In this document: positions 1 through 49,765 of the stretch, in pieces | Numbering within the stretch: position 1 is the stretch's first letter | How the letters are laid out: every line of letters begins with the position of its first letter | NCBI GenBank assembly: GCA_016794525.1 | Contig: JAEUJY010000005.1 | Coordinates: forward strand, 1-64,000 | Length of the DNA: 64,000 nucleotides | DNA from: Myxococcales bacterium | Lineage (GTDB): Bacteria > Myxococcota_A > Polyangia > Haliangiales > Haliangiaceae | Direction of reading: 5' to 3' | Notes under the pieces: model-generated | Told to the model about the DNA's origin: nothing | What the model saw: the letters and a program-made list of their open reading frames with translations, nothing else | Databases searched by the model: none | Program-made: the position numbers and the translations under genes

Positions 1-1
1 G

Positions 2-4199: not shown

Positions 4200-4200
4200 G

Positions 4201-6126: not shown

Positions 6127-8903
6127 GCAATCAACAGGATCTTGGCTTCGCGATGCGTAAGACGAACGACGGACCAGTCGAGTGCCTCGGACTGATGTTC
6201 AAGAACGACGACGCTCGTCGCACGCACTTCCTTAAGCTGCTGCGTGAGAAACTTCAAGACACAGAGTTTCGGAACACGCCGGGATTCCCGACAGGGAGCG
6301 ACGAGGCCATCTTGCGCATGTCCGACCCGCCGTACCACACGGCATGTCCAAACCCGTTTATCGAGGACTTCGTGCGAGCGTACGGCAAGCCTTACGACCC
6401 TACCGAGGAGTACGAGCGTGAGCCGTTTGCTGTTGATGTTCAAGGTGGGAAGTTCACTTCCCTCTATAAAGCTCACTCGTACCACACTAAGGTGCCGCAC
6501 CTTGCAATCGCGCCATTGATCCTGCATTACACTCTGCCGGGAGAGGTCGTGCTTGACGGCTTCTGCGGGTCGGGAATGACCGGTGTGGCTGTCAAATGGT
6601 GCGAGCTTGCCTCGAGTTCAGAGAGGCAGGAGTTGGCAAACGAGTGGAGAGCGATCGGTAGAGCCGACCCGGTGTGGGGCGCGCGACACGTCGTTCTCTC
6701 GGACCTGTCGCCAGCGGCAACGTTTATCGCGGCCAACTATCTCGCGCCCATCGCAGCGGATCGCTTTGAGGAAAGGGCAGCCCAGATTCTAGACGAGCTT
6801 AGACGCGAGATCGGTTGGATGTACGAGACCAGGACTCATGATGGAGTCGCCGTCCACATGGAGTACATGGTCTGGAGTGAAGTGTTTATCTGCCACGCCT
6901 GTAGCGGAGAGATTGTATTTGAACCCGCGGCGGTCGATAGAACAACGTGGCACATACGTGATGAGATCTCGTGTCCTCAATGTGGCGCAACAAGTCGAAA
7001 GGAGCAGATGGAGCTGGTCTTTACGACGGTTGTCGACCAGAGGTCAGGGAAACCAAAGTCAGTTCCGAAGAGGGTTCCCGTTTCGGTCTTCTACAGATCC
7101 GGGAGCGCCTTGCAGGAGAAGAAGCCGGATGAGCAAGACCTCGCAGTAGTTGCGCGCGTTGAGCAGCTCTCGTTTCCACTTGAGATACCAACAGATCGAT
7201 TTCCGGATTGTCAGATGTTGCGCGTGGGCAGAATGGCTACCACGCGCATAGAGTCCGTCCACGACCTGTTTCTGCCCCGGGCTGCCCACTGTCTCGCCGC
7301 TCTTTGGCGGAAAGCACTGGCAGAGCCGGATCCGCACATGAGCAGATTCCTTCTCTTTCTCTTTGAGCAAGCGATCTGGGGGCTCTCAGCGCTAAATCGC
7401 TACCAGCCGTCGCAACACGAAAACTACGGGGGCTCACAGGTCAACCGGCAGCTAAACGGCGTCTACTACGTCTCGTCGATGATCGCCGAGTGCAGCCCAT
7501 GGCACAACCTTGGTGGAAAGATTGGACGCTTGGCTTCTGCGTTCAGAGCGTTTCCAAGCCGCAGCGAACGAACGATCATCGCTACCGGGACGGCTGCTTC
7601 CACCGGGCTGCCAAACAACTCGGTCGACTACATCTTTACTGACCCACCATTCGGTGAGAATATTTACTACGCCGATCTCAACTTTCTCGTTGAGTCATGG
7701 TATGGCGTCTTTACCAACGATACATCGGAGGCGATTGTCGATCGGGTGAGAGGCAAGGACATATTGGCCTATCAGAGGCTTATGGAGAGGTGCTTCGCGG
7801 AATACCACAGGGTTCTCAAGCCGGCGCGATGGATGACCGTCGTTTTCAGCAATTCGAAGAACGGGGTCTGGCGAGCGATCCAAGAAGCGCTGGGGGCTGC
7901 CGGTTTCGTCGTGGCAGATGTACGCACGCTCGACAAGAAGGTCGGGTCTTTCAAGCAGGTGACGAGTTCGGCAGTAAAGCAGGACCTCATCATCTCAGTC
8001 TACAAGCCCACCGAGACCCTAGCCCACCGCTTCGAACTCGGTCACGCGACCGCGGAGGGGGCCTGGGCCTTCGTGAAGGAGCACCTCGGCAACGTTCCGG
8101 TTTTCGTTGGACGCGCGAGCGAGGGCGAGGTTGTCGCGGAGCGCACGGCGCAACTGTTGCTCGACCGGACGATCGCCTTTCACGTGCAGCGGGGCATCAG
8201 CGTGCCGCTGTCGGGGCCCGAGTTTCTTCAAGGTCTTGCGCAGCGCTTCCCGGAGCGTGATGGGATGTACTTCCTGCCCGAGCAGGTGGCGGAGTACGAC
8301 CGCAAGCGCACGAGCGTTGCTGAGCTGCGCCAGCTCAGCCTTTTCGTCAATGACGAGGCGAGCGCCATTCAGTGGGTGCGGCAGCAGCTACAGGACCGGC
8401 CGCAGAGCTTCCAGGATCTACAGCCTCAATTCATGCGCGAGTTGCAGACGTTGGCCAAGCACGAGAAGACAGTCGAACTCAGACAGATTCTCGTGGACGG
8501 CTTCGGGCACTATGATGGCCGCGGTCCAGTTCCGAACCAGATACACGCGTACCTATCGTCGAACTTCAGGGAGCTTCGCAATCTCGAGAAGGACGACGGG
8601 AGACTGCGCGAGAAGGCAGCTGATCGTTGGTATGTCCTCGACCCGACCAAGCAGGCTGACCAAGATCAGATTCGGGAGCGACAGCTGCTTAAAGAATTCG
8701 TTGAGTACAAGGCGAGTACTCAGCGCAAGCTCAAGCTGTTTCGTACCGAGGCGGTGCGCGCGGGCTTCAAGGCTTGTTGGCAGGAGCGCGACTATCGCAC
8801 GATCGTGAAGGTCGCGGAGAAGCTCCCGGAAGCCGTTCTCCAAGAGGACGAGAAGCTCCTTATGTACTACGACAACGCGCTCACGCGCCTCGGCGACGCG
8901 TGA
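6123..8903 (+). CDS. pglX: BREX adenine-specific DNA methyltransferase PglX (type 3), 926 aa
   Basis: A large amino-methyltransferase predicted to mark host DNA so that BREX spares it. The AdoMet-binding motif is LDGFCGSGMTGVAV near residue 142. There are two D-P-P-[YF] motifs, SDPPYHTACPNPF near 65 and TDPPFGENIYYADLNFL near 505; the second has the context expected for catalytic motif IV, and the order suggests a circularly permuted or beta-class N6/N4 enzyme. A zinc-ribbon insertion (CHAC near 257, CPQC near 284) separates them. The last 300 residues are helical with no recognised domain and may recognise DNA or bind partners. ATG 6123 overlaps the preceding stop. The target sequence cannot be predicted. 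Confidence 0.82.
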   Translation: MSNQQDLGFAMRKTNDGPVECLGLMFKNDDARRTHFLKLLREKLQDTEFRNTPGFPTGSDEAILRMSDPPYHTACPNPFIEDFVRAYGKPYDPTEEYEREPFAVDVQGGKFTSLYKAHSYHTKVPHLAIAPLILHYTLPGEVVLDGFCGSGMTGVAVKWCELASSSERQELANEWRAIGRADPVWGARHVVLSDLSPAATFIAANYLAPIAADRFEERAAQILDELRREIGWMYETRTHDGVAVHMEYMVWSEVFICHACSGEIVFEPAAVDRTTWHIRDEISCPQCGATSRKEQMELVFTTVVDQRSGKPKSVPKRVPVSVFYRSGSALQEKKPDEQDLAVVARVEQLSFPLEIPTDRFPDCQMLRVGRMATTRIESVHDLFLPRAAHCLAALWRKALAEPDPHMSRFLLFLFEQAIWGLSALNRYQPSQHENYGGSQVNRQLNGVYYVSSMIAECSPWHNLGGKIGRLASAFRAFPSRSERTIIATGTAASTGLPNNSVDYIFTDPPFGENIYYADLNFLVESWYGVFTNDTSEAIVDRVRGKDILAYQRLMERCFAEYHRVLKPARWMTVVFSNSKNGVWRAIQEALGAAGFVVADVRTLDKKVGSFKQVTSSAVKQDLIISVYKPTETLAHRFELGHATAEGAWAFVKEHLGNVPVFVGRASEGEVVAERTAQLLLDRTIAFHVQRGISVPLSGPEFLQGLAQRFPERDGMYFLPEQVAEYDRKRTSVAELRQLSLFVNDEASAIQWVRQQLQDRPQSFQDLQPQFMRELQTLAKHEKTVELRQILVDGFGHYDGRGPVPNQIHAYLSSNFRELRNLEKDDGRLREKAADRWYVLDPTKQADQDQIRERQLLKEFVEYKASTQRKLKLFRTEAVRAGFKACWQERDYRTIVKVAEKLPEAVLQEDEKLLMYYDNALTRLGDA

Positions 8904-8911
8904 ACTGAGCG

Positions 8912-11743
8912 ATGCGGGTGTCTGCGGGCGACTGGTGCCACAGCCTGGACCACGATGAGCCTTGCCGCGTCATTGCGGTGGACGTGGTGTGGGGGCAGGA
9001 GACCGCGCAGGTCTGGCTCGCCCGTCGCGACGCGGTCGTGCGCTTGCTCCGGAGCCGTCTGCAGCCGCTCGCCGTTGCCGTCGCGCCATCGCTCGATCAG
9101 CTCTGCTACGTCGCCTCCGCCGCGCGCATCCTCGACGCCATGGAGCGCGATGCGCTGATCTCCCCGCTCGAGGGTTCGGTTATCCCGCTGCCTCACCAGC
9201 TCCATGCGCTCCAGCGAGCGATGTCTACCGACCGCGTTCGGTATCTGCTGGCCGACGAGGTCGGCCTCGGCAAGACCATCGAGGCGGGGCTCATCCTCCG
9301 AGAGCTGAAGGTCCGCGGCCTCGCCAAGCGCGTCCTCGTCGTCGCGCCCGCGGGGCTCACGAGCCAGTGGGTCAGCGAGATGAAGACCCACTTCAGCGAG
9401 GACTTCCGGCTCGTGCAGCCCGGAAACTTCCCTGCCTGGCGGCAGCTCGCCGGCGTCGACGAGAAGGAGAATCTCTGGCGTCTTCACGATCAGGTCGTGT
9501 GCCCCCTCGATTCCATCAAGCCGATGGATACGCGGCGGGGCTGGTCGCGCGAGCAGGTGGCTCGGTACAACCGCGAGCGCTTCGAGGATCTGGTCTCCGC
9601 CGGTTGGGATCTGGTGATCATCGACGAGGCGCACCGACTCGGTGGTAGCTCCGAGCAAGTCGCCCGGTACCGCCTTGGGGAGGCCCTGGCCCAGGCGTCG
9701 CCCTACCTCCTGCTGCTCTCGGCCACACCGCACCAGGGCAAGACCGACGCGTTCCGGCGCCTGGTCGCCTTCCTGGACGCCGACGCGCTGCCGGACGACG
9801 AGTCGGTCACGCGCGACAACGTCGCGCCATACGTCATCCGGACCGAGAAGCGCCGCGCGATCGACGCTGATGGCAAGCCCCTCTTCCGACCGCGCTACAC
9901 CCAGATCGTCTCCGTCGAGTGGGACACCTCGCGGCAGGAGCAGCGGGCCCTCTACGAGGCCGTCACGGAGTACGTGCGTGATGGGTACAACCAGGCGCTG
10001 CGCGAGAAGCGCACGGCCATCGGGTTCCTGATGATCCTGATGCAGCGGCTGGTGACGTCGAGCACGGCTGCCATTCGGACGGCTCTCGAGCGGCGTCTCG
10101 AGGTGTTGGAGCTGCCATCCGGGCAGCTCTCGCTCTTCGGCGAGGACGTGGGGGAGGAATGGGTCGACCTGGACGGGCAGGAGCAGATGGAGTCGCTCCT
10201 CCAGAGCAGGCTCAAGGGGCTCAACAACGAGCGGGCCGAGGTCGAGCTCTTGCTGTCGGCCGCGCGCCGCTGTGAGGCCCGCGCGCCCGACGGGAAGGCC
10301 GAGTCGCTGCTCGCCTGGATTCAGAAGCTGCAGCGTGAAGAGAACGACCCGGCGCTCAAGGTCCTGATCTTCACCGAGTTCGTGCCCACCCAGACGATGC
10401 TCGCCGACTTCCTACGGCAGCGCGGCTACATGGTGGCCTGCCTCAACGGCTCGATGGACCTCGAGACGCGCAAGTCCGCTCAGCGGGCCTTCGCCGGGGA
10501 CGCGCAGGTGCTCGTCTCCACCGATGCTGGCGGCGAGGGTCTCAACCTGCAGTTCTGCCACGCCATCGTGAACTACGACCTGCCGTGGAATCCGATGAAG
10601 CTCGAGCAGCGCATCGGCCGCGTCGATCGAATCGGCCAGACGCACGTCGTGCGCGCACTCAACCTCGCGCTCGAGGATACCGTCGAGATGCGAGTACGAG
10701 AGGTCCTGGAGGAGAAGCTCCAGCGCATCCTCGAGGAGTTCGGGGTCGACAAGCTCTCCGACGTGCTCGACTCCGAGGAGGGCGGCGTCGACTTCGAGCA
10801 GCTCTACGTCGCAGCCGTGCTCTCGCCGGAAGAGGCGGAGGCGCGAGCCGAGGCGCTGGCCGACTCCATCCGAGCGCGGGCGCGCTCGGCGCGTGAGGGC
10901 TCGGCGATATTGGCAGCCACGGAGGAGCTGGACACGTCGGCCGCCAAGAAGGTTGCCGGGCACCAGATGCCGTTCTGGACCGAACGTATGACCGTCGCTT
11001 GGCTGCGCACGCAGGCCGGTCGCGGGGCCTCGGTAGAGAGCAAGGCGCCTGGCGTCTACGACATCAGGTGGCCAGGTGGCGGAACGACCAACGCGGCGTC
11101 CTTCAGCCGTACCGCGGCCGACGATCCCGGCAAGACGCTCCTCACGATCGAAGACCCACGCATCCGTGGCCTGACGGCGCGGATCCCGCCGTACGCGCCC
11201 GGCATGCAGGTCGCGCAGGTCGTCATCCCTGGCGTGTCGGACAAGGTCGGTGGCTTCTGGTCGTTGTGGCGTGTCGGCCTCTCGACGTTCGATGGCCGGG
11301 AGCAGCGTGTTCTGCCGATCTTCGTCACGCCCGATGCGCAGACGCTCGCTCCCACGGCCCGCGTGGTGTGGGACCGCCTGGTCGAGCGGGCCGACGGGGC
11401 CGAGGTGCTGCCAGCGGCTGCGACGCCCGACGGCTCCGCAGAGCGTGCGCTTGAGCAGTCCCGGACGGCGGCAGAGCAGCAGGGTAAGGCTGCGTTCCAC
11501 GAGCTACTGGAACGGCACCGCGCGCGCCTGTCGATGGAATCGCGGAAGATGAACGTCGCCTTCTCCGCTCGACGCCGCGCGATCGAGCGGCTCGGCCTGC
11601 CGCAGGTTCGCGACTTCCGCCTGGCACAGCTCGCGGAAGAAGAGGCAGCCTGGCGGCGGGAGTTCGAGGCACGACAACAGGGTCTTCCCGAGCTGACCCC
11701 GATGCTCCTCGTCGCGGTCGCACGGACCGGAGATGCCACATGA
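8912..11743 (+). CDS. brxHII: SNF2-family helicase BrxH (BrxHII type), 943 aa
   Basis: Superfamily 2 SNF2-type ATP-dependent DNA translocase. Visible motifs are I (DEVGLGKTIEAG, near residue 113), II (IIDEAHRLGG, near 235), III (LLLLSATPHQGKTD, near 265), IV (FTEFVPTQTM, near 487), V (STDAGGEGLNLQF, near 533) and VI (EQRIGRVDRIGQ, near 565). A long C-terminal region (residues 620-943) includes a coiled-coil end. Similar helicases occur as BrxHII in type 3 BREX and as DrmD in DISARM; the neighbours PglZ and BrxA decide for BREX. It starts eight bases after the pglX stop and ends in an ATGA overlap with pglZ. Confidence 0.82.
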   Translation: MRVSAGDWCHSLDHDEPCRVIAVDVVWGQETAQVWLARRDAVVRLLRSRLQPLAVAVAPSLDQLCYVASAARILDAMERDALISPLEGSVIPLPHQLHALQRAMSTDRVRYLLADEVGLGKTIEAGLILRELKVRGLAKRVLVVAPAGLTSQWVSEMKTHFSEDFRLVQPGNFPAWRQLAGVDEKENLWRLHDQVVCPLDSIKPMDTRRGWSREQVARYNRERFEDLVSAGWDLVIIDEAHRLGGSSEQVARYRLGEALAQASPYLLLLSATPHQGKTDAFRRLVAFLDADALPDDESVTRDNVAPYVIRTEKRRAIDADGKPLFRPRYTQIVSVEWDTSRQEQRALYEAVTEYVRDGYNQALREKRTAIGFLMILMQRLVTSSTAAIRTALERRLEVLELPSGQLSLFGEDVGEEWVDLDGQEQMESLLQSRLKGLNNERAEVELLLSAARRCEARAPDGKAESLLAWIQKLQREENDPALKVLIFTEFVPTQTMLADFLRQRGYMVACLNGSMDLETRKSAQRAFAGDAQVLVSTDAGGEGLNLQFCHAIVNYDLPWNPMKLEQRIGRVDRIGQTHVVRALNLALEDTVEMRVREVLEEKLQRILEEFGVDKLSDVLDSEEGGVDFEQLYVAAVLSPEEAEARAEALADSIRARARSAREGSAILAATEELDTSAAKKVAGHQMPFWTERMTVAWLRTQAGRGASVESKAPGVYDIRWPGGGTTNAASFSRTAADDPGKTLLTIEDPRIRGLTARIPPYAPGMQVAQVVIPGVSDKVGGFWSLWRVGLSTFDGREQRVLPIFVTPDAQTLAPTARVVWDRLVERADGAEVLPAAATPDGSAERALEQSRTAAEQQGKAAFHELLERHRARLSMESRKMNVAFSARRRAIERLGLPQVRDFRLAQLAEEEAAWRREFEARQQGLPELTPMLLVAVARTGDAT

Positions 11744-13770
11744 CGCAGCGGCGCGACGGCTGGCGCGCTCCGATCCTGCAGCACTTCAGCGAGGCCAGCG
11801 CCAAGGCAGGACGGCTCACCGTGGTGAGCGACCCCGACGAGCTGCTCACCGAGCCCGGCGTGGTCGAACGCCTCGCCGCGCGGGGGTTCGAGCTGATCAC
11901 CTTTGGCGACCCGGTGGCCTTCCGCTACGCCTACGAGAGCCGCTTCCGTCAGCACTGGGATCGGGGCGAGGCCACGCACCTCGTCGTCGTCATCCGTACC
12001 AACCATGGCGACCTGAAGCACATCCCACACGACTTGCTCGAGGAGGCGCGCGAGAGCGGACGCGTCTTGTCGTTCAGCCTCGTCCACCTCTTCCCGTCGC
12101 TGGCCCCGAACGTCGTTGCAGAGCTGGATCCACAACAGTTCGATGCGCTGTCCTACGCGCTCGAGCACGCAGAGTCTGGCAACCTCGGGACCAACGCCAC
12201 CCGGGACTTCGTGCTGCGGCATGTCTTCGAGATCGCGCCCGAGCTGATCAAGCAGCCGGCGGACCTGCTCCGTGTTCTGCTTCGCCGGCACTATCGCGCG
12301 CAGGTCTTTCCGGAGAGCCTGGACGCACGCTTCATCGAGGTGCTGCGGCAGAGCCCGAAGTGGCGCTCGTGGCCGCTCGAACGCATCCTGCCGGATCGCG
12401 AGGCGTTCCTGATGTTCCTGGGCGAGCGCTGGCCCGGCTTCCTCCTCTCCAAGGGCTTGGTGGCCGTCCCGGGGCGTGACCCGGCGGGGCCGAGCATCTC
12501 CGGACCCATGGACCTGCCCTTCGATCACGACGACGTCCGCGTCTACATGGACAACCTATTCGTCGAGGGGCTGCTCGAGCCAACAGCAACCGTGCGCCCT
12601 ATCGACGACGAGCATTGGTTCGGCGTCGGGATCGCGGGCTCGCCCGCGTCGAGTTTCGAGGGCCGGTTCTTCCACCTGCTCGACGAGCTCGGCGGCACGA
12701 TCCCGAGCGCGGACGATGCCACGTACCAAGAGTGGCAAGCCTACAGCCTCCGTTGGGGCACGTGGGTCCGCCTGCGTTGGCAGACCCAGCCAGACCGCGA
12801 CACCGCGAGCGAGGCGGCGGCCGTCGCGTTCGTGGAGCGCGTCCAAGCAGCGTTCTCGACATGGCTCCTGCGGCGGTTCGGACCGATGTCCACGCTCCCC
12901 TATCTCCCCCGGCCGGTGCTCGGACATCACGTGCCGCACTACCTCGCGCACCATCTCGGGCAGGCAGGCACGGAGCGCGTGGCGCTCCTGGTCATCGACG
13001 GCATGGCGATCGACCAATGGCGCATCCTGCGGGACACGCTCGACGGCCACCACATCGACGAGCACGCGATCTTCAGCTGGATCCCCACGCTGACGCAGAT
13101 CGGTCGTCAGGCCATCTTTTCGGGCCGCATCCCTCTCGAGTTTGCGACCAGCATCGAGGGCACGCATCGCGAGCCAGTGCACTGGTCCAACTTTTGGCAG
13201 GACCGAGGCCTGCCCGAGCGGGCGATCCGATACGTGAAGCCCCAAGGAAACAACGAATCGTTGGAGCCGCTCACGGCGGACATCCTTGGCGCCGCAGGAG
13301 ACCCGGCGGTGCGTGTGATCGGTGCGGTCATCGGCCTCATCGACCAGAGCATGCACCAGGTCGGTCTCGGCACGTCGGGGCTGCACGGGCTGGTCGAGGT
13401 CTGGTCTCGGACCAAACAATTGGTTGGGTTGGTGGACGCACTCCTTGACCGAGGCGTCGCCGTGTTCATCACCGCGGACCACGGCAACGTCTTCGGGCGA
13501 GGTTTCGGGAAGCCCGACGTCGGCGTGACCGCGCAGCAGCGGGGAGAGCGAGCGCACATCTTCCGCAACAAGGACTTCCGGGACAACACGGCACTCCAGT
13601 ATCCCGATGCGGTCGCGTGGCCGCAGATCGGCCTCCCGCAGGACTACTTCCCGCTGCTCGCACCATACGGTGCGTGCTTTATGCCTGAGGGCAAGGAAGC
13701 CGTAAGCCACGGTGGGATCGCGCTCGAGGAGGTCATGGTCCCGTTCGTCCGCATCTCGAGGCCTCGATGA
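11740..13770 (+). CDS. pglZ: PglZ-domain protein of type 3 BREX, 676 aa
   Basis: The C-terminal half is an alkaline-phosphatase-superfamily PglZ domain. [12 protein letters not shown] near residue 415 carries the first metal-binding Asp. [16 protein letters not shown] near 447 carries the Thr/Ser region, [14 protein letters not shown] near 575 the D-H pair, and [16 protein letters not shown] near 655 the last His. PglZ is the hallmark of all BREX types and is required for defence; its substrate is unsettled. The N-terminal 400 residues form the usual helical PglZ extension. The ATG overlaps the brxHII stop and the TGA overlaps the brxA start, so the protein sits in the middle of a translationally coupled operon. 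Confidence 0.88.
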
Positions 13771-14510
13771 ATCGTCGCGCGAACATCGGCTTCGATCGGC
13801 GCATCGATCTCGCGTGGCTCGACGCCACGGTCGCAAAGGCCGCGGACGGCGCCTCGATAGAGGAGATCAGGAGTTATGTCTGGGACTATCTCGAAGGTAT
13901 CGTGAGCGGAAAGGTCCACGGCAGCGCGCGGCAGAAGACCACCACTGTACTGCATCACATATGGGGCGATGTCCCGGCGCTTGCTACAGGGCTCCGGGAG
14001 CGGGCACTTGCTCAGGTCGGTTCGTGCACGGCAGATGAGCGGTTGGCGCTTCACTGGGCGATGATGGTGGGCACGTACCCACTGTTCACCGACACAGCCG
14101 CAGCTATCGGCAGACTCCTGATGCTTCAGGGCGACTTCACGCTCGCGCACCTGACCCGTCGTCTCGTCGAGGGGTGGGGGGAGCGCTCTACGCTTGGGCG
14201 AGCTGGTCAGCGCGTCGTTCGGTCCATGGTTCAGTGGGGTGTGCTGCAAGATACCGAGACCCATGGCGCATACAAGGCGATGCCGCGCCGTCGGAAAGTA
14301 GGCCCAACCGTCGCGACCTTGCTCATCGAGGCACTTCTCGTCGACGCCGAAGGCATATCACTCACCTTCGACCAGCTCGTCGGGCATCCGGCGCTCTTCC
14401 CGTTCGACCTCGGCGTAAACGCCAGCCACGTGCGGAGCGCGTCGCAGTTCCGGGTGCATCGACAGGGGCTCGACTCGGACGTCGTGGAACTGCAAGGAGG
14501 CAGAACCTGA
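13767..14510 (+). CDS. brxA: BrxA-like small DNA-binding protein (DUF1819 type), 247 aa
   Basis: A helical protein of 247 residues in the place where type 3 BREX operons carry brxA. Its length and pattern fit BrxA/DUF1819: an early [12 protein letters not shown] region, a central two-helix block with [17 protein letters not shown], a winged-helix-like part with [13 protein letters not shown] near residue 155, and a C-terminal strand region ending [15 protein letters not shown]. BrxA homologues are reported to bind nucleic acid. No single catalytic motif is visible, so the call rests partly on position. It is coupled to pglZ by ATGA and to the downstream helicase by TGATG. Confidence 0.65.
14494..14500 (+). 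promoter_or_regulatory. Strong Shine-Dalgarno deciding the helicase start
   Basis: AAGGAGG lies nine bases before ATG 14510. The reading frame is open from 14174, but the bases before 14510 also encode brxA in another frame, so this site marks ATG 14510 as the true start. Confidence 0.75.
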
Positions 14511-17500
14511 TGCACAGCGATGCGCGACAACTTCCCATCGAGCATCTCTCGGTCCGCCTGCCGTGGCACGACACCGGGTGGGCCGGCACGGTCTGCCGAG
14601 CGCCGTCAAAGAATACCTGGTGCATGGTCCTGAAGGGCATCCGAAAGAAACGCGACGACGCCACCGAGGACAGCGTTGCTGGGCGAGCCTGGGCTGAACT
14701 GGCCAAGGAGCAGCTGCCAGCCTGCCTAAACGAACGTGGGGCAGCCCTGAACCCCAAGGCGTATTCGCTGCACGGCCATCATCCATACGCCGACTCGTCC
14801 CCCGAGACGCACGGGCACTTCGCCGACAATGTGTTCCATCTCCCGCCCTACAGCCTCCAGGTCATCCCTTTCCGATGGACACGCAAGGAGGATGCGCAGG
14901 TCATCGCGAACAGCCTGGCGCTGCCCTTCGACCTAGCACGCGAGCCGAAGCTGGCCTTCGACACTGTCTGGGTCAACGACTTCGAGAACCAGCAGATCAT
15001 GCTGGACACCTTCTTCGGCGCGCTCCAGCCAGAGAAGTCGCTGGTCTTCCTGTACGCAAAGCGGACGCCGTTGGCCGACGATCCACGCCGCGTGCTCGTG
15101 GGCGCCGGTTGCATCACGGGTGTCGGCCCCGGACAGGAGCACGCCTATGGCGGCAATACGCGGGGGAAGCTCCGCGGTCTCATGTGGGAACGAGCGGTTT
15201 CCCACTCAATCCGTCCCGACGGCTTCGATGGTTTCGTGCTGCCGTACCAGCAGCTGCTCGCGCTCTCGGAGCGAGACGGCAGCATCGATCCGTCGCAGTT
15301 CGTGGCATTTGCGCCGGAGGAAGCCTTCGACGCCTTCAGCAATGTCGCAGAGCACGTCGACCACGATCTCGCGATCGCGAGCCTTCTCTCGCTTGCGGAC
15401 AAGGTGCGGGTGATCGCCCGGCACGTCCCCGGAGCGTGGGACCGTCACCTGGAGTGGATCTCCGAGCGCCTCGCGGAACTCTGGCACCTCCGTGGCGCCT
15501 TCCCAGGGCTGAGCAGCGCCCTGCATGCGTTCGAGATTCGGTACGGAACACTGCTCGCGATGGATCTGGCTCAGAGGCAGACGGTCGACGGCCGCTGGAA
15601 GGAGGACCCCTGGGAGCTGGTAGCGCGCGCCTTGGCGAAGCCGACCGACCTCCTGTCGCCCGGGGTGGCGTCGCACGTCCAGCCATTCGACGGGAAGCGT
15701 CTCGCGGCCCTCGCCCCCGAGCGCCTCGCGCTCCTTAAGCTGCTCTCACGGTTTCGGCTGACGGTCGAGCAAGCCAGGCGCTGCTTCGCAGCGGACAATC
15801 GAGCCAGTCTCACCGACGAGGACATTCTCCGCAACCCGTACCGGCTCTTCGAAGTCGACCGGCATCGCTTCGATGCCGTCAGCATCGGGATCGTGGACCG
15901 CGGCATGTTCCCCGACGAGTCGGTGCGGACGTCCTTCCCGCTGCCCGATGCCAGTCGACTCGACGGCGACCAGGACCCCAGGCGTGTGCGAGCACTCGCG
16001 GTCCACGTGCTCGCGAGCGCCGAGGCAGCGGGACACACGCTGCTCCCGGTCGAGCATGTCCTCGAGAGCGTCCGCGAGCTGGCGCTCGATCCACCCTGCC
16101 GGCCGACCAGCGACCTGCTGCCCCTTCTCGACCCCGTCATGGCGCCGGAGATCGTGGACGCGTCCATTGCCGATGGCTCGCGGGCATGGCAGTTCGGGGA
16201 ACGCCGCGTCATCGACGACCTGCTTCGCCAGCAAATCGGCCGCCGACGCACCGGACGTAGGCACCCTGCCACGTACGACTGGCGGGCATTGGTCGACAGC
16301 GCGCTCGGCGCAATGCCGACGGACGCAGACGAGGTGGCGCTCGAGGAGCGTGCCCGAGTCGAGAAGGCAGCCGCACTGGGCGAGTTGTTCGCGGCGCGCT
16401 TTGCGCTCCTTCTCGGTCCGGCTGGGACCGGCAAGACCAGGCTTCTGCAGATCCTCTGCGACCTCCCTGAAGTTCGGGGTGACGGGGTGTTACTCCTGGC
16501 GCCGACCGGCAAGGCGCGTGTCCAGATGCAGAGGAACATCCAGGGCCTCAAGGCTCTGACCATCGCGCAGTTCCTGCTGCCGGATAGGTTCGACCTGGAG
16601 ACGCAGCGGTACCGCTTGTCGTCGGCTCCGAAGGTCGAGGCGGCTGGAACGGTGATCATCGACGAGGCCTCGATGGTCACCGAGGACATGCTCGCGGCCG
16701 TGATCGACGCCTTGAAGGCGCCGAAGCGGATCATCCTGGTGGGCGACCACCGACAGCTTCCTCCGATCGGTGCGGGGCGCCCCCTGGTCGATCTTGCGCG
16801 CGAACTCCAGCCAGAGAACGTCGAGGCGCTCTTCCCGCGCGTCGGCGCCGGCTACGCGGAGCTGACCGTTCATCGACGGCAGACAGGGACGGGCACGGCG
16901 GGCCGCGACGACCTTTTGCTTGCCTCGTGGTTCAGCGGCGAGGCCCCGGACCCCGGCGCCGACGAGATCTGGGTGCGGATGGCTCGGAGCGAGACCGACA
17001 GCCACGTGCACGTGCGGACCTGGCAGTCCGACGAGGAACTCAAGACCGCGCTCCTCGAGGCGATGGTCCAACACGTGCCCGAGATCGAGCACGACCGCGA
17101 CGAACGCGGCTTCGGCGTCTCGCTCGGCGGCGTACCCTCCGACAAGGGCGTGTTCTTCAACGCCGCGTGGTTGGAGAAGAACCGGCCTGGCTCGTCGGAG
17201 CGCTGCGAGAGTTGGCAGGTGCTAACGCCCGTGCGCGGCAAGGCCCACGGCGTCGAGGAACTGAACCGATTTCTCCACGAGCGCTTCCGCGCCGACGCAC
17301 TCCGGTTCGCGGGCGGTCGCCAGCCGCGGACACCGCGGCCTAACGGAGCCGAGCGGATCATCTACGGCGACAAGGTAATGTCGACGGTCAATGCGCGCCG
17401 CGGGGTGTTGCCGCGACGGCGAGAGCTCGTCTCGAACGGCGAGATCGGTATCGTCGTGGGACAGGCGAAGTTCGGCCGCGCCTGGGACGGCGAGACGCCC

Positions 17501-18253
17501 GTGCGCCTCGACGTCGAGTTCCGCACGCAGCCGGGTAACACCTTCATGTATTGGCCGAGCGACTTCGGCGACGACGGCGCCGTGGTACTCGAGCTGGCCT
17601 ACGCCCTCACGGTGCACAAGAGCCAGGGTAGCCAGTTCGACCAAGTCTTCGTCGTCATCCCGCAGCCGTGCTTCATCCTCGGGCGCGAGCTCATCTACAC
17701 GGCACTGACGCGCCAGATCGCCCGTGTGGTGCTGTTCGTCCAAGGGCAGCCGAGCGATCTTCGGGTCTACACGTCACCGAAGTACTCCGAGGTGGCGAGG
17801 CGGTACACGAACCTCTTCGTCGCTCCGGACATGCTCGCCGAGCCCGGCGGCACCTTCCTGGAGCGCGGGCTCATCCACCGCACGGCTCGAGGTGAGCTCG
17901 TCCGCTCGATCTCCGAGGTGGTCGTTGCTGATGCCCTCCATGCCGAGGGTGTCGACTATCAATACGAGAAGGCGTTCCGCGGTGTGGACGGCGCGGAGCG
18001 CTACCCCGACTTCACGGCGGAGGATCCGGCGAGCGGCATCACCGTGTACTGGGAGCACCTCGGGATGCTGTCGGATCTTTCCTACGCAAGAAGGTGGAAG
18101 AGGAAGTTGCAGTGGTACGAGGCGATGGGCCTCCAGCCAAATGGCCCCGAGAACGCCAGGGGCGAGCGTCTAGTCACATCACAGAACCGGCACGACGGCG
18201 CGATCGACTCGGCCCAGATCCGACATCAGGTGCGGGACGTCTTCGGGAGGTGA
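14510..18253 (+). CDS. RecD-like helicase with C-terminal PD-(D/E)XK-like nuclease, 1247 aa
   Basis: The central superfamily 1B helicase has Walker A LLGPAGTGKTRLLQ near residue 640, LLAPTGKARVQMQ near 663, motif II IIDEASMVTEDM near 720, LVGDHRQLPPIG near 744 and a UvrD-C2-type YALTVHKSQGSQFDQVF near 1032. The region before the motor resembles RecD2 helical-hairpin segments (TDEDILRNPYRLFEVD near 438). The C-terminus (1140-1215) reads SEVVVADALHAEG, then YPDFTAEDPASG and VYWEHLGML, then a Y-x(3)-W-x(2)-K helix. This fits a PD-(D/E)XK-like nuclease as seen fused to some helicases. Residues 1-430 are unidentified. It is coupled to brxA by TGATG and ends the operon. A nuclease-effector or DNA-processing role in BREX is inference. 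Confidence 0.72.
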   Translation: MHSDARQLPIEHLSVRLPWHDTGWAGTVCRAPSKNTWCMVLKGIRKKRDDATEDSVAGRAWAELAKEQLPACLNERGAALNPKAYSLHGHHPYADSSPETHGHFADNVFHLPPYSLQVIPFRWTRKEDAQVIANSLALPFDLAREPKLAFDTVWVNDFENQQIMLDTFFGALQPEKSLVFLYAKRTPLADDPRRVLVGAGCITGVGPGQEHAYGGNTRGKLRGLMWERAVSHSIRPDGFDGFVLPYQQLLALSERDGSIDPSQFVAFAPEEAFDAFSNVAEHVDHDLAIASLLSLADKVRVIARHVPGAWDRHLEWISERLAELWHLRGAFPGLSSALHAFEIRYGTLLAMDLAQRQTVDGRWKEDPWELVARALAKPTDLLSPGVASHVQPFDGKRLAALAPERLALLKLLSRFRLTVEQARRCFAADNRASLTDEDILRNPYRLFEVDRHRFDAVSIGIVDRGMFPDESVRTSFPLPDASRLDGDQDPRRVRALAVHVLASAEAAGHTLLPVEHVLESVRELALDPPCRPTSDLLPLLDPVMAPEIVDASIADGSRAWQFGERRVIDDLLRQQIGRRRTGRRHPATYDWRALVDSALGAMPTDADEVALEERARVEKAAALGELFAARFALLLGPAGTGKTRLLQILCDLPEVRGDGVLLLAPTGKARVQMQRNIQGLKALTIAQFLLPDRFDLETQRYRLSSAPKVEAAGTVIIDEASMVTEDMLAAVIDALKAPKRIILVGDHRQLPPIGAGRPLVDLARELQPENVEALFPRVGAGYAELTVHRRQTGTGTAGRDDLLLASWFSGEAPDPGADEIWVRMARSETDSHVHVRTWQSDEELKTALLEAMVQHVPEIEHDRDERGFGVSLGGVPSDKGVFFNAAWLEKNRPGSSERCESWQVLTPVRGKAHGVEELNRFLHERFRADALRFAGGRQPRTPRPNGAERIIYGDKVMSTVNARRGVLPRRRELVSNGEIGIVVGQAKFGRAWDGETPVRLDVEFRTQPGNTFMYWPSDFGDDGAVVLELAYALTVHKSQGSQFDQVFVVIPQPCFILGRELIYTALTRQIARVVLFVQGQPSDLRVYTSPKYSEVARRYTNLFVAPDMLAEPGGTFLERGLIHRTARGELVRSISEVVVADALHAEGVDYQYEKAFRGVDGAERYPDFTAEDPASGITVYWEHLGMLSDLSYARRWKRKLQWYEAMGLQPNGPENARGERLVTSQNRHDGAIDSAQIRHQVRDVFGR

Positions 18254-18530
18254 GACCGGTTGTCTCGAACCCCACCCCGGCGAGCCGATCGACCGTCGCG
18301 TCGCGATGGCTGGCCATAATGCGCTGTTACACGGGCGTGACACCCCTAGTGAATGATGCGCAACTTCGGCTTCGATGTCGCGGACTTGAGGCCCGTCGGG
18401 ACGGGGACTGAAAATCCGCGTGTCGGCGGTTCAACTCCGTCCCTGGGCACGAGCAAGGTGGTTGGTGAGTGGGTCGCGCAGCAGCGGCGGTTCATCCGCC
18501 GCGGTCGCGATGCTGGCGTAAGGTCGGCGC
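18254..18530. other. Intergenic stretch at the island boundary
   Basis: No convincing gene is seen between the helicase stop and the TPR gene. The right half holds the tRNA-Phe fragment. The left half (18254-18402) has no clear hairpin terminator or open frame with coding bias. Confidence 0.5.
18403..18450 (+). other. 3' fragment of tRNA-Phe (GAA), putative att site
   Basis: The sequence contains the tRNA-Phe anticodon arm (loop CTGAAAA, anticodon GAA), variable loop, T arm (stems GGCGG and CCGTC around TTCAACT), the 3' acceptor strand CCTGGGC and discriminator A. The matching 5' acceptor GCCCAGG, the D arm and an encoded CCA are absent. Similarity to a normal tRNA-Phe begins at GGGGACTGAAAATCC and stops after GGGCAC. 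Such 3' tRNA pieces are typical of the far junction left by tyrosine-recombinase islands that insert into tRNA genes. It is unlikely to be functional. Confidence 0.75.
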
Positions 18531-19751
18531 GTGGCGCGTGTGCTGACCTACGACGATCTCCCGCCCGATGTGCAGGCGAACCTCGACCTCGCGTACCGCG
18601 CCTTCAGCCGGCGGCGCTACGACGAGGCCATCCGCGGGTTCACGGCGGTGGTCGACGCCTACCCGGCGTACATCCACGGTGTGTTCACGCTGGTGCGAGC
18701 GTTGCGCGCGAGCGACGACCGCGCCTCGGCCAACGCGCGCTTGAGCGCCGCCGCCGCGATCGCTCCTGACGATCCGCGGATCGAGCTCGGCCTCGCGTGG
18801 AAGGCGCTCGATGCCGGTGACGCGCGCGACGCCGAGGCGCTCGCCACGCGGGCGCTGCCGCGCATCGAGCCAGAGCTCCGTGGCAACGTGCTCGCGGTGC
18901 TGGCGCGCGCCGCCGAAGCGAGCGGCCGCACCGAGGACGCGGCGCGGCTGTTCCTCGAGGCGTACGAGGCGGGCACGATGCTCGGCTGGCTCGAGGAGCA
19001 CTGCCGGCTGGCTGGCATCGAGTACCTGGATCCCGGCCCCGACACCATCGCGCCCTGGCCGACGACCGCCGTGGCGCGGCGGTGGATGTACGCGGCGATC
19101 GAGGCCGCGCTGGTCGAGGCCGCCCGCGCGAAAGATCCCGCCGTCCCCGATGGTCAGGTGCTGATCACGGGCTGCGATGGGACGGCGCGTCTGACGGCTG
19201 CGTGGGCTCGTCGCGCGGGCGTCGATCGACCACGCCTGTACCAGGCGTTGGCCAACCGCGGCGGCTACTGCGACTGCGAGGTCTTGCTGAACGCCACCGA
19301 ACGCGACGGTGCCGACGCGTTCGCGCTCGTCGCCGGCGTGATCGACGGGCCGCTCGACGAGGTCGTCGCCGCTCTCGAGGACATTCTCTACGGCGATGCG
19401 CCGTCGGAGCCGGTGCGATTGGATCCGGACGCGGAGCGCCTCGAGCACTGTCTCGGGATCTACCTCGACGAGGCCAGCGCTCGGATCCCGCTCCAGGTCA
19501 CCGACCGCGCGACCGTCGGCTGGATCCTTCGCGCGATGGCCGATCGCCCCCCCACCCGCGCGCGATTGCGGCTGCTGGTCGGCTTCACCGACCAAGCCCC
19601 GGCGATGGCGCTGGCCGGCCCCGATGGTGCGACGTTGCGCATCAAGGAACTCGACGACGGTCCCGTACCGAGCGACCTCGACGCCGCCTGGCCTGACCTG
19701 GCCGCGCAGCTCGCAGCGCTGCGCGCCGGGCTTCCCGGACCGGGCGCCTGA
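18531..19751 (+). CDS. TPR protein with DUF2695-like C-terminus, 406 aa
   Basis: The first 150 residues form TPR-like helical pairs (DLAYRAFSRRRYDEAIRGF, later LATRALPRIEPELRGN). The middle part contains GYCDCEVLLNA near residue 247, which is the C-x-C signature of DUF2695-type proteins and might bind a metal. The protein has no signal peptide and should be cytosolic. It begins at GTG 18531 with only a weak AAGG upstream and stands alone as the first gene right of the island boundary. Its function is unknown. Confidence 0.6.
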   Translation: MARVLTYDDLPPDVQANLDLAYRAFSRRRYDEAIRGFTAVVDAYPAYIHGVFTLVRALRASDDRASANARLSAAAAIAPDDPRIELGLAWKALDAGDARDAEALATRALPRIEPELRGNVLAVLARAAEASGRTEDAARLFLEAYEAGTMLGWLEEHCRLAGIEYLDPGPDTIAPWPTTAVARRWMYAAIEAALVEAARAKDPAVPDGQVLITGCDGTARLTAAWARRAGVDRPRLYQALANRGGYCDCEVLLNATERDGADAFALVAGVIDGPLDEVVAALEDILYGDAPSEPVRLDPDAERLEHCLGIYLDEASARIPLQVTDRATVGWILRAMADRPPTRARLRLLVGFTDQAPAMALAGPDGATLRIKELDDGPVPSDLDAAWPDLAAQLAALRAGLPGPGA

Positions 19752-20697: not shown

Positions 20698-20879
20698 CCT
20701 CATCGAGGCGAGCGTCCCGGCGAGACGCGATCGTGTCAAGCGCGCACCGCTGGCAGCGTTCCGCCGCGGCCCGCGCCCCGCAGGCTCTGCGCGAATCCGG
20801 CGCTGGCGCGCGGTCCCTGCGGCAGCAGGGCGCAGGTGGCGCGCTTGCGCGACTCCCGCGGCGTGCCGACCTTCACGGC

Positions 20880-22664
20880 GTGACGACGCTGGACCTGGCC
20901 GCGATGGTGCAACGGCATGGCGGTGATGCGACGCGGCTGGTGCAGATCCTCCACGAGGTGACCGCGGCGCTGGGGTACGTGCCGCCGGCGACGATCACCG
21001 AGCTGGCGGCGCGGCTGGGCGTGTCGCGGGCCCACGTCGAGGGCGTGGTGGGGTTCTACAGCTTCTTCTCGGCGGCGCCGCAGGGGCGGTTCCGGGTGCG
21101 GTTCAGCGACAACATCACCGACCAGATGGCGGGCAGCCACGCGCTGTGCCAGCGCATGCTGGACGCGTTCCGGGTGGAGCTGGGCGAGGTGAGCCGCGAC
21201 GGGCTGGTGTCGATCGCGCGCACGAGCTGCACCGGGCTGTGCGATCAGGGGCCGGCGCTCTTGGTCAACGATCGGGCGATCGCGCGGCTGACGCCGCAGC
21301 GGATCGGCGCGATCTGCTCGCTCATCCGCGGCGAGGTGCCGCTGCCCCAGTGGCCCGAGAACCTGTTCGCGATCCACCGCCTCGTCGAGCGCCGCGATCG
21401 CATCCTGGCGGCGGTCATGCAGCCAGGCGAGGGCCTTGCCGCGGCCGTGGCGCGCGGCAAGGCCGCCACCATCGCCGAGCTCGAGCGATCCGGGCTGCGC
21501 GGGCGCGGTGGGGCGGGCTTCCCGGCCGGCGCGAAGTGGGCGGCGTGCGCGGCGGCGCCGGGGCCGGAGCGCTACGTCGTGTGCAACGCCGACGAGGGGG
21601 AGCCCGGCACGTTCAAGGATCGCGAGCTGCTCATGCACCACGCCGAGCTGGTGATCGAGGGCATGACCGTCGCGGCGTTCGCGGTGGGCGCCCAGCGCGG
21701 TCTCGTCTACCTGCGCGCGGAGTACCCGTTCCTGGTGGCGCCGCTCGAGGAGCTGCTGGCTCGGCGGCGCGCGGCGGGGTTGCTCGGGCGCGCGGCGGGC
21801 GGCGTCGCCGGGTTCGACTTCGACATCGAGCTGCACGTCGGCGCCGGCGCGTACGTGTGCGGCGAGGAGTCGGCGTTGATCGAGTCGCTCGAGGGCAAGC
21901 GCGGCATCCCGCGCAACCGCCCGCCGTACCCGGTGACCCACGGCTATCGCCAGCGGCCGACGGTGGTGAACAACGTCGAGACCCTTGCCGCCGCGGCGCT
22001 GATCGCGCGGGACGGCGCCGGCGTCGTGCGCGACGTCGGCACCCCGAAGTCGGCCGGCACCAAGCTGCTGTCGGTGTCGGGCGACGTCGCGCGACCCGGC
22101 ATCTACGAGTACCCGTTCGGCGTGACCGTGCGGCAGGTGCTCGACGACGCCGGCGCGGTCGCGACCCAGGCGGTGCAGGTGGGCGGCCCGTCGGGGACGC
22201 TGCTGGCGGCGCGCGAGTTCGGGCGGCGGATCGCGTTCGAGGACGTGCCGTCGGCCGGCGCGTTCATGGTGTTCGACCAGCGCCGCGACATGGTCGCGGT
22301 GGTCGAGAACTTCGCGCGGTTCTTCGCCCACGAGAGCTGCGGCTTCTGCACGCCGTGCCGGGTCGGCACGACGCTGGCGGCGCAGATGATGACCCGCATC
22401 GCCACCGGCGTCGGCTCGCGCCGCGACGTCAAGGACCTGGCGCGGGTGGCCGGCGTGATGAAGGCGGCGAGCCACTGCGGCCTGGGCGCCACCGCCGGCG
22501 CGCCGGTCGTCGCCGCGCTCGAGAAGTTCCGGCCGGCGTTCGATCAGCGGCTGCGCTCGCTCGACGTGGTGCCGACGTTCGATCTCGACCTGGCGCTGGC
22601 GCCGGCCCGCGAGGCCACCGCGCGCGACGACCAGGCCGCGCACCTCGACGAGGAGAGCCCGTGA
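20880..22664 (+). CDS. hoxF: NAD-reducing [NiFe] hydrogenase diaphorase subunit HoxF, 594 aa
   Basis: HoxF passes electrons between the hydrogenase module and NAD+. The N-terminal NuoE/HoxE-like domain (residues 1-150) has only the second cysteine pair of the usual [2Fe-2S] site (CTGLC). The region of the first pair reads SDNITDQMAGS, with Ser/Asp in place of Cys. The NuoF part has the FMN/NADH motifs GRGGAGFPAGAKW near 207 and NADEGEPGTFKDRE near 238, then GAYVCGEESALIESLEGKRG, and a [4Fe-4S] site CGFCTPC near 487 plus a later HCGLG. GTG 20880 gives the usual length of about 600; the frame is open further upstream to GTG 20733. The stop overlaps hoxU in GTGA. Confidence 0.88.
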   Translation: MTTLDLAAMVQRHGGDATRLVQILHEVTAALGYVPPATITELAARLGVSRAHVEGVVGFYSFFSAAPQGRFRVRFSDNITDQMAGSHALCQRMLDAFRVELGEVSRDGLVSIARTSCTGLCDQGPALLVNDRAIARLTPQRIGAICSLIRGEVPLPQWPENLFAIHRLVERRDRILAAVMQPGEGLAAAVARGKAATIAELERSGLRGRGGAGFPAGAKWAACAAAPGPERYVVCNADEGEPGTFKDRELLMHHAELVIEGMTVAAFAVGAQRGLVYLRAEYPFLVAPLEELLARRRAAGLLGRAAGGVAGFDFDIELHVGAGAYVCGEESALIESLEGKRGIPRNRPPYPVTHGYRQRPTVVNNVETLAAAALIARDGAGVVRDVGTPKSAGTKLLSVSGDVARPGIYEYPFGVTVRQVLDDAGAVATQAVQVGGPSGTLLAAREFGRRIAFEDVPSAGAFMVFDQRRDMVAVVENFARFFAHESCGFCTPCRVGTTLAAQMMTRIATGVGSRRDVKDLARVAGVMKAASHCGLGATAGAPVVAALEKFRPAFDQRLRSLDVVPTFDLDLALAPAREATARDDQAAHLDEESP

Positions 22665-23398
22665 CCGACGCGTCGCCTCCGCAGACGTTCCAGATGGACG
22701 GCCACGACGTGGCGTTCACGCCCGGGCAGTCGATCCTGACGGCGGCGCTGGCCGCGGGTCGCTACATCCCGCACCTGTGCTTCCACCCCGAGTTCACCGC
22801 CCACGGCAGCTGCAAGGTTTGCACGGTGAAGGTCAACGGGCAGCCCCACGCCAGCTGCACCACGCCGGCCCGCAGCGGCGACGTCGTCGAGTCGGACACC
22901 GACGAGCTGACCCAGCTGCGCCTGAACCTGGTGCAGTTCCTGTTCGCCGAGGGCAACCACTTCTGCCCGAGCTGCGAGAAGAGCGGCGCGTGCACGCTGC
23001 AGGGCGTGGCCTACGAGCTGGGGATGACGACCGAGCACTACAGCCCGTTGTTCCCCGATCGGCCGGTCGACGCGTCGCACCCCGACGTGCTGCTCGACTT
23101 CAACCGCTGCATCCTGTGCGAGCTGTGCATCCGGGCGTCCGCGATCCACGACCAGAAGCACGTCTTCGCGCTGTCGGGGCGCGGCATCACCAAGCACCTG
23201 ATCGTCAACGCCGAGTCGGGCCGCCTGGCCGACACCGCGCTGGCGCTGTCGGACAAGGCGATGACGGTGTGCCCGGTGGGCGTGATCCTGCGCAAGCGCC
23301 AGGGCTTCGCGGTGCCGATCGGCGAGCGGCGCTACGACCACCAGCCGATCAGCGCGGTCGCCGTCGGGCACCGCCCGAAGGAGGACGGCCATGAGTGA
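22661..23398 (+). CDS. hoxU: NAD-reducing hydrogenase Fe-S subunit HoxU, 245 aa
   Basis: HoxU carries the iron-sulfur chain linking HoxY to HoxF. In order it shows a plant-ferredoxin-like [2Fe-2S] site (CFHPEFTAHGSCKVC plus a further Cys), a NuoG-type His-Cys3 [4Fe-4S] site (HFCPSCEKSGAC) and a CILCELC...CPVG [4Fe-4S] site. The length matches the family. GTG 22661 overlaps the hoxF stop, and its own TGA lies inside the hoxY start region, giving an eight-base overlap. Translational coupling suggests equal production of subunits. Confidence 0.88.
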   Translation: MTDASPPQTFQMDGHDVAFTPGQSILTAALAAGRYIPHLCFHPEFTAHGSCKVCTVKVNGQPHASCTTPARSGDVVESDTDELTQLRLNLVQFLFAEGNHFCPSCEKSGACTLQGVAYELGMTTEHYSPLFPDRPVDASHPDVLLDFNRCILCELCIRASAIHDQKHVFALSGRGITKHLIVNAESGRLADTALALSDKAMTVCPVGVILRKRQGFAVPIGERRYDHQPISAVAVGHRPKEDGHE

Positions 23399-23966
23399 GC
23401 GCGCGAGCGACGGCGCGGCGGTCGTGCCCCGGCGCAAGCTGCGGGTGGCGACCGCGTCCCTGGCGGGGTGCTTCGGCTGCCACATGTCGCTGCTCGACAT
23501 CGACGAGCGGTTGGTCGACCTGCTCGAGCTGGTGGAGCTGGACGCGTCGCCGTTGACCGACAAGAAGCGCTGCGGCCCGTGCGACATCGGGCTGATCGAG
23601 GGCGGGCTGTGCAACGCCGAGAACGTGCACACGCTCCGCGCGATGCGCGCGAACTGCAAGATCCTGGTCGCGGTCGGCGCGTGCGCGCTCAACGGCGGGC
23701 TGCCCGCGCAGCGCAACCACATCGACGTGCGCGACTGCCTGCAGACCGCGTACCTGTCGGGCCCTGGCGTCGAGCGCGGCTTCATCCCCAACGACCCCGA
23801 GCTGCCGCTGCCGCTGGCGCAGGTGCACCCGCTGCACGACGTCGTGAAGATCGACTACTTCCTGGCCGGGTGCCCGCCGTCGGCGGACGCGATCTGGCAG
23901 TTCCTGACCGACCTGATCGCCGGCCGCACGCCGGTCACCGCCCACGGCCTCATCAAGTACGACTGA
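23391..23966 (+). CDS. hoxY: [NiFe] hydrogenase small subunit HoxY, 191 aa
   Basis: This short small subunit lacks a Tat signal, as expected for a soluble cytosolic group 3d enzyme. Ligands for the single proximal [4Fe-4S] cluster are visible in LAGCFGCHMSLLD near residue 27, VGACALNGG near 102 and LAGCPPSADAIW near 164. The additional cysteines KKRCGPCDIG resemble those in other soluble hydrogenases. It lies between hoxU and hoxH, one base before the hoxH start. With HoxH it forms the H2-activating module. Confidence 0.9.
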   Translation: MSERASDGAAVVPRRKLRVATASLAGCFGCHMSLLDIDERLVDLLELVELDASPLTDKKRCGPCDIGLIEGGLCNAENVHTLRAMRANCKILVAVGACALNGGLPAQRNHIDVRDCLQTAYLSGPGVERGFIPNDPELPLPLAQVHPLHDVVKIDYFLAGCPPSADAIWQFLTDLIAGRTPVTAHGLIKYD

Positions 23967-23967
23967 C

Positions 23968-25443
23968 ATGCCCACCTCCCTCGACACCGCCCCCAACCCC
24001 GAGACCCTGCGCCGGATCGTCATCGAGCCGGTGTCGCGGGTCGAGGGCCACGGGAAGGTCACGATCCTGCTCGACGCCGAGCGCAAGGTGCAGCAGGTGC
24101 GGCTGCACATCGTCGAGTTCCGCGGCTTCGAGCGGTTCATCCAGGGCCGGCCGTTCTGGGAGGTGCCGGTGATGGTGCAGCGGCTGTGCGGCATCTGCCC
24201 GGTCAGTCACCACCTGGCGGCGTCCAAGGCGATGGATCAGATCGTCGGCGCGACCCGCGTCCCGGCGACGGCGACGGCGATCCGCCGGCTGATGCACTAC
24301 GGCCAGATCCTGCAGTCGCACGCGCTGCACTTCTTCCACCTCGCGTCGCCCGACCTGCTGTTCGGCTTCGACAGCGATCCGGCCAAGCGCAACGTCGTGG
24401 GCGTGCTGGCGGCGCACCCCGACCTGGCGCGCCACGGCATCCTCTTGCGCAAGTTCGGCCAGGAGATCATCCGGATCACCGCCGGCAAGCGCGTCCACGG
24501 CACCGGCTCGATCCCGGGCGGCGTGAACAAGCGGGTGACGCCGGCCGAGCGCGACGAGCTGCGGGCGCCGCTGGCCGACGTGGTGGCGTGGGCCGAGGCC
24601 GGGGTGCGGCTGGTGGCCGACCTGTTCGCGGCCAACCGCGCGCTGTACGAGGGCTTCGGCACCGTGCGCTCGAGCCTGCTGTCGCTGGTCGCGCCCGACG
24701 GCGCGCTCGATCTGTACGACGGCGTGCTGCGGGCCCGCGACGCCGACGGCGGCATCCTGTTCGACGGCGTGCGCTGCGCCGACTACGGCGCGCGCATCCA
24801 CGAGAACGTGCGGTCGTGGAGCTACATGAAGTTCCCGTTCTTCGCCGAGCTGGGCCCGGAGCGCGGCTGGTACAAGGTCGGGCCGCTGGCGCGGATCCAG
24901 AACTGCGATTCGATCGGCACGCCGCGGGCCGAGGCGGCGCGGCAGGAGTTCCTGGCGCGGACGCTGGGCACGATCCAGCACGCGCCGCTGGCCTACCACT
25001 GGGCGCGGATGATCGAGCTCCTGCACGCGGCCGAGGTGATCGAGCGCCTGCTGGCCGACCCGGCGCTGGTGGGCGACGAGCTGACCGCGACCGGCGCCCG
25101 GGCCACCACCGGCATCGGCGTGATCGAGGCGCCGCGCGGCACGCTGATCCACCACTACGAGGTCGACGCCGACGATCTGGTGACGATGTGCAACCTGATC
25201 GTGTCGACGACCCACAACAACACCGCGATGAACGAGGCGATCCGCCAGGTGGCGCGGCAGTACCTCGACGGCCGCGAGCCGACCGAGGGCCTGCTCAACC
25301 ACATCGAGGTGGCGATCCGCGCGTTCGATCCGTGCCTGTCGTGCGCGACCCACGCGCTCGGCAAGATGCCGCTGGCGGTCGAGATCGTCGACGCCGCCGG
25401 CGCGCTGGTGACCCGCCTGGTGCGCGACGGGGAGTCGCTGTGA
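23968..25443 (+). CDS. hoxH: [NiFe] hydrogenase large subunit HoxH, 491 aa
   Basis: Catalytic subunit carrying the Ni-Fe site. The N-terminal ligand motif is RLCGICPVSHH near residue 72 and the C-terminal motif is DPCLSCATH near 455. The L1 region EPVSRVEGHGKV lies near residue 20. The protein continues 29 residues beyond the final His of DPCLSCATH, the C-terminal extension that a maturation protease removes after nickel insertion. The protease gene follows immediately in a GTGA overlap. No hyp genes for CN/CO and Ni insertion are in the window, so they must be elsewhere if the enzyme matures. Confidence 0.92.
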   Translation: MPTSLDTAPNPETLRRIVIEPVSRVEGHGKVTILLDAERKVQQVRLHIVEFRGFERFIQGRPFWEVPVMVQRLCGICPVSHHLAASKAMDQIVGATRVPATATAIRRLMHYGQILQSHALHFFHLASPDLLFGFDSDPAKRNVVGVLAAHPDLARHGILLRKFGQEIIRITAGKRVHGTGSIPGGVNKRVTPAERDELRAPLADVVAWAEAGVRLVADLFAANRALYEGFGTVRSSLLSLVAPDGALDLYDGVLRARDADGGILFDGVRCADYGARIHENVRSWSYMKFPFFAELGPERGWYKVGPLARIQNCDSIGTPRAEAARQEFLARTLGTIQHAPLAYHWARMIELLHAAEVIERLLADPALVGDELTATGARATTGIGVIEAPRGTLIHHYEVDADDLVTMCNLIVSTTHNNTAMNEAIRQVARQYLDGREPTEGLLNHIEVAIRAFDPCLSCATHALGKMPLAVEIVDAAGALVTRLVRDGESL

Positions 25444-40449: not shown

Positions 40450-40479
40450 GGCCGATGGGTAGCACGGCGGCGCCGGCAG

Positions 40480-40508
40480 TTGAACGGAGTTCGCGGGGCG
40501 TGTTACGC
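40480..40508 (+). promoter_or_regulatory. Possible sigma-70-type promoter for preA
   Basis: TTGAAC (40480-40485) and TTACGC (40503-40508) are 17 bases apart in the 117-base divergent gap between mmsA and preA. The -10 match is weak, so this is only a candidate. Confidence 0.3.
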
Positions 40509-41691: not shown

Positions 41692-41697
41692 ATTACA

Positions 41698-49762: not shown

Positions 49763-49765
49763 GCC

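Follow-up and report, generated by a model that had tools for sequence, protein, structure and literature searches.

The window analyzed here is a stretch of 64,000 nucleotides that forms the start of contig C123 (102,730 bases) of a draft Myxococcales genome. Window base 1 is C123:1; hence, the sequence upstream of it is unreadable on C123. The window opens with a BREX type 3 operon, which is followed by the 3′ part of a tRNA-Phe gene. The question raised by this locus is whether the fragment is the end of an integrated element and, if so, where the other end lies. An earlier sequence-only reading had taken a 3′ tRNA-Phe fragment at 18403–18450 for the right end of an island inserted in the 3′ end of tRNA-Phe and had predicted an intact tRNA-Phe sharing this sequence and an integrase to the left of the BREX genes. 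Both predicted features are found on a separate contig of the same genome, C65, and the elements of the two island ends are as follows.

18405–18450, plus strand: attR core and right island end, a 46-bp 3′ part of tRNA-Phe, 46/46 identical to C65:14868–14913 (minus strand)
C65:14868–14941, minus strand: intact tRNA-Phe(GAA)
C65:13704–14930, plus strand: tyrosine recombinase gene int (Pfam Phage_integrase, 5.3e-14; PHROG integrase, 5e-44)

The fragment, GGACTGAAAATCCGCGTGTCGGCGGTTCAACTCCGTCCCTGGGCAC, corresponds to positions 29–74 of the intact gene. It was correctly recognized in the earlier reading, apart from its start, which had been placed two bases outside the identical block. As had also been described, it contains the anticodon loop, the T arm, and the 3′ acceptor strand, it is oriented rightwards, and it lacks the 5′ half. 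It also includes the variable region; nothing tRNA-like precedes it. ARAGORN calls no tRNA in the window, and Rfam gives no match at the fragment. In a search of the 9.8-Mb genome, the fragment matches the intact gene with E = 8e-18 and the next best place with E = 0.5; the match is far beyond chance. In an RNA fold of this piece (z = −2.1), the core pairs with bases from the island, which was regarded as coincidental. Contig C7 of the genome also has a 7.8-kb run of 27 tRNA genes, all on the same strand (C7:40242–48036; locus L041:4243–12037), among them a second, divergent tRNA-Phe. This resembles a tRNA array of the phage type, or the contig may be a foreign one within the bin.

The int gene adjoins the intact tRNA-Phe and converges on it. 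Its product contains the conserved segments NDLRRT, GHS, and VYGRL, and a small excisionase-like HTH frame overlaps its start. The two contigs are linked by brxF, the first BREX gene, which is divided between them by an IS-like insertion. The junction on the window side consists of three features.

1–140, plus strand: right end of the IS-like insertion splitting brxF, with the imperfect terminal inverted repeat TGTCGCCA...; the other end is C65:1–140
141–146, plus strand: 6-bp target duplication CGCGCT in brxF, present on both contig sides
142–492, plus strand: 3′ part of brxF, encoding the BREX-3 P-loop protein (PADLOC BrxF, 1.3e-35; NCBIfam NF033453, 6.9e-35); the 5′ part is C65:307–141 (minus strand)

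The first part of BrxF ends with PLVNINLA on the reverse strand of C65, and the remainder starts with ALSERLLELT in the window; both parts match BrxF profiles. Once a single copy of CGCGCT is counted, the frame is continuous across C65 and C123, with the interruption after codon 55. The uninterrupted brxF of G009, a relative from another genus, aligns to both C65 and the window with an overlap of exactly 6 bp. The split gene, the target duplication, and the uninterrupted gene of the relative together identify the two contigs as parts of one element; judged from this junction, C65 and C123 are adjacent and both ends lie on one continuous element. Window 1–141 is identical to C137:1–141, that is, to the beginning of a further contig. 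The insertion is, therefore, multicopy, which accounts for the contig break at window base 1. Its interior is absent from the assembled bin, and the length between C65:1 and C123:1 is unread; a length of 1–3 kb is a guess.

The island, hence, consists of C65:1–14867, the collapsed, unassembled insertion, and window 1–18404, at least 33.3 kb in total. The fragment is almost certainly the attR of an integrative genomic island inserted in tRNA-Phe, as the earlier reading had held and as this arrangement of repeat, integrase, and linked contigs indicates. Its window part, from 142 to 14510, is a BREX type 3 operon followed by a helicase gene; downstream of the 3′ part of brxF, the genes are the following.

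489–4199, plus strand: brxC/pglY (DUF6079; PADLOC BrxC, E = 0; Pfam DUF6079)
4201–6126, plus strand: gene for a RecG-C-terminal-like HATPase_c_4 domain protein (Pfam, 2.4e-13), between brxC and pglXI
6123–8903, plus strand: pglXI, DNA methyltransferase (PADLOC PglXI, E = 0)
8912–11743, plus strand: brxH, SNF2-like helicase (PADLOC BrxHI, E = 0)
11740–13770, plus strand: pglZ, BREX-3 type (NCBIfam NF033449, 2.8e-190; PADLOC PglZ, 7e-212)
13767–14510, plus strand: brxA (PADLOC BrxA, 1.3e-62)
14534–18253, plus strand: large RecD/UvrD-like helicase, candidate defence protein PDC-S68 (PADLOC PDC-S68, E = 0, residues 121–1357); the mechanical ORF start is 14174 and the profile match starts at ~14534

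By its gene set the locus is BREX-3, and the order brxF, brxC, pglXI, brxH, pglZ, brxA equals that of the uninterrupted operon of G009 (G009:C73:36271–50224), an ortholog with an intact brxF. It differs from the BREX type 3 arrangement in the split brxF, in the HATPase_c_4 gene (for which the G009 operon matches no more than the first 29 residues), and in the PDC-S68 helicase after brxA. Because brxF is split, not all BREX-3 core genes are intact; a working system is only putative, and the insertion probably impairs BREX. Among the 35 relatives searched, brxC occurs in G009 only and is missing from all six of the same genus. The C65 part carries, besides int, genes for Rad52-like, PD-(D/E)XK, MoxR, vWA, DUF6744, and uncharacterized proteins. 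Phage structural or packaging genes are not among the scanned island genes; only recombination genes are. An uncultured myxobacterial contig (L163) encodes a related integrase without a nearby tRNA and, in the same region, relatives of the DUF6744, MoxR, and Rad52-like proteins, which suggests from gene content that it shares a mobile backbone with the island.

The island differs in composition from its surroundings. GC3 is 0.71–0.87 in the island genes of the window compared with 0.92–0.99 in most genes rightwards, where some of the called frames are doubtful, and GC is likewise lower within the island; the kinase gene beyond the intact tRNA on C65 has a GC3 of 0.98. The shift in codon use noted in the earlier reading is thus real, and only its placement "exactly" at the fragment is slightly too strong, since the first gene to the right is intermediate.

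18531–19751, plus strand: first gene right of the island (TPR and DUF2695, Pfam; GC3 0.88), taken as chromosomal

This gene has no close relative among 35 related genomes. Farther to the right, window 20733–25443 contains matches to NADH-dehydrogenase-like 51K/24K, 20-kDa, and nickel-hydrogenase subunits, by these matches resembling an NAD-linked [NiFe] hydrogenase cluster; no such cluster was seen in the contigs of relatives compared here. Window 38950–51178 is a conserved chromosomal block that lies on other contigs in relatives.

The same tRNA-Phe is used repeatedly. A tRNA search gives partial tRNA-Phe copies in seven relatives, most of which also begin at the anticodon arm. G002, G011, and G021 have a related integrase at the intact tRNA-Phe and a ~98% identical fragment on a separate contig. 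Most relatives read retain the left flank of kinase and tRNA-Phe, whereas downstream of tRNA-Phe no two of them share chromosomal neighbors, integrases aside, which makes the site a hotspot. Because each relative read has a different sequence 3′ of tRNA-Phe, none is a clean empty site joining the kinase, tRNA-Phe, and the right flank of the window (18451 onward).

At such a site, two elements could stand in tandem, one with the integrase and recombination module and the other with BREX, and the fragment would belong to the older one. Tandem accretion does occur here, as G005 contains two tRNA-Phe fragments 7.9 kb apart, and the 37 kb read around the BREX operon of G009 contain neither a tRNA nor a related integrase. 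The latter observation also shows that, in the sole relative bearing brxC, fragment and BREX genes are not conserved in position; such conservation in distant relatives is what the earlier reading had named as evidence against an island. However, neither an internal tRNA-Phe copy nor an inner att site is seen in the island, the complete identity of fragment and intact gene is expected for one recent event, and the island-side tail at the fragment resembles the attR tail of G002, whose integrase is 62% identical. Two elements are, on balance, an unlikely explanation. Far less probable still is an origin of the fragment without integration, as a decayed or duplicated copy of tRNA-Phe: duplication can produce tRNA fragments, but this one begins at the anticodon arm like most others, is undecayed, is directed away from the island, and is linked through brxF to an integrase at the matching intact tRNA. 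Chance resemblance or an assembly artefact, for which no support was found beyond contig ends being repeat-limited, is hardly credible given the E-value and the brxF junction, which is in frame and is spanned in an independent relative.

For a single island at tRNA-Phe, the following history is proposed. The attP of the element would have included a copied 3′ portion of tRNA-Phe, and the tyrosine recombinase of the left end would have recombined it, close to the anticodon loop, with the chromosomal tRNA-Phe. The intact tRNA-Phe of C65 would then be attL, combining the chromosomal 5′ part with the 3′ part of the element, and window 18405–18450 would be attR, the displaced original 3′ part of the chromosome. 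In this way the island would have delivered the BREX type 3 operon together with the RecD-like helicase. Later, the IS-like element would have entered brxF, duplicating 6 bp and causing the break of the assembly at window base 1. The polarity of recombination, the crossover point, and any present mobility are what we infer from this arrangement.

tRNA genes are documented as preferred integration sites (PMC8371274, citing Williams 2002). The island resembles known tRNA 3′-end genomic islands in that one end carries an intact tRNA and a tyrosine recombinase and the opposite end an identical, equally oriented 3′ fragment, as well as in its foreign composition and its cargo of defence genes. Nothing essential differs; here, however, the int frame passes through the att core into the tRNA. 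A tRNA-integrated defence island is an ordinary, known kind of element, and this one is unusually well confirmed for a draft genome.

The int frame runs through the att core into antisense tRNA-Phe, so that the last 20 residues of the integrase (VPRDGVEPPTRGFSVRCSTS) are an antisense reading of the tRNA and the integrated form ends with ...TRGFSVRCSTS*. The catalytic region (to ~residue 342) precedes the att core. On the island side, the frame continues as follows.

18346–18408, minus strand: continuation of the int frame, a 20-residue attP-form tail VPVPTGLKSATSKPKLRIIH predicted from an in-silico attP junction, with the stop at 18348–18346; its first bases overlap the att core

The predicted attP form, likewise from the in-silico junction, ends with ...TRGFSVPVPTGLKSATSKPKLRIIH*. 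Six relatives 40–69% identical to the integrase have the same-frame antisense tRNA-Phe ending with small substitutions, and most related integrases beside tRNA-Phe in named genomes share such an ending. At the attR fragments of this genome and of G002, G011, G021, and G030, the antisense frame extends 20–22 residues into the island. Integrases of elements without a nearby tRNA, in which the attP form is seen, have tails of 10–31 residues after TRGFS that are often basic, and an LRxV-like end is common to several tails. With three tail pairs combined, amino-acid identity is higher than in controls with shuffled columns (p = 0.0006 or 0.003, according to which pair was included), and the true frame scores highest in five of five pairs; the pairs were picked after the tails had been seen, and a constraint at the DNA level (integrase arm sites) could also account for such conservation. 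The comparison weakly suggests that selection acts on the protein. As for arm-type integrase sites, 10–11-mers common to the island ends are no more frequent than chance would give, and none is claimed. Other related integrases stop before the core; hence, the site can be used without read-through. At eight further loci (L179, L192, L208, L211, L215, L216, L218, and L221), integrase 3′ ends resemble antisense tRNA readings, that of L179 overlapping tRNA-Lys and the other seven by appearance only. Judged by such endings, integrase read-through may extend beyond tRNA-Phe.

In this integrase clade, integration would exchange an attP tail of 10–31 residues for ...TRGFSVRCSTS*, and this could, although it is less likely than not, be a built-in switch. 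In archaeal SSV1-type "suicidal" integrases, attP lies inside int (PMC8371274). The present case is similar in that the att site is within the int frame and integration alters the integrase product. It differs in that the crossover would fall after the catalytic domain, so that the gene stays in one piece and changes are confined to its final residues, and the removal of the active form that defines the SSV1 type is not found here. In mycobacteriophage BPs, integration-dependent immunity is based on an attP in the repressor gene (PMC4557955), and integration alters the C terminus of the protein whose gene holds attP; there the protein is a repressor and here an integrase, for which an effect on activity is only hypothetical. 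A literature search, incompletely covering older papers, returned no bacterial integrase with a C terminus altered by integration into a tRNA, which does not establish novelty. Among named phage and plasmid records, the relatives of the integrase are all below 60% identity (22–29% for the best listed) and are uninformative on the site.

If the exchange of tails has an effect, it would represent a simple bacterial integration-sensing switch, standing between the archaeal suicidal integrases and the mycobacteriophage repressor switch, and it might, for example, favor integration of the circular form and a stable chromosomal state. For the lineage itself, the locus points to a route by which BREX type 3 would have arrived, namely on a mobile island at a recurrently used tRNA-Phe site, with the system later damaged via brxF.
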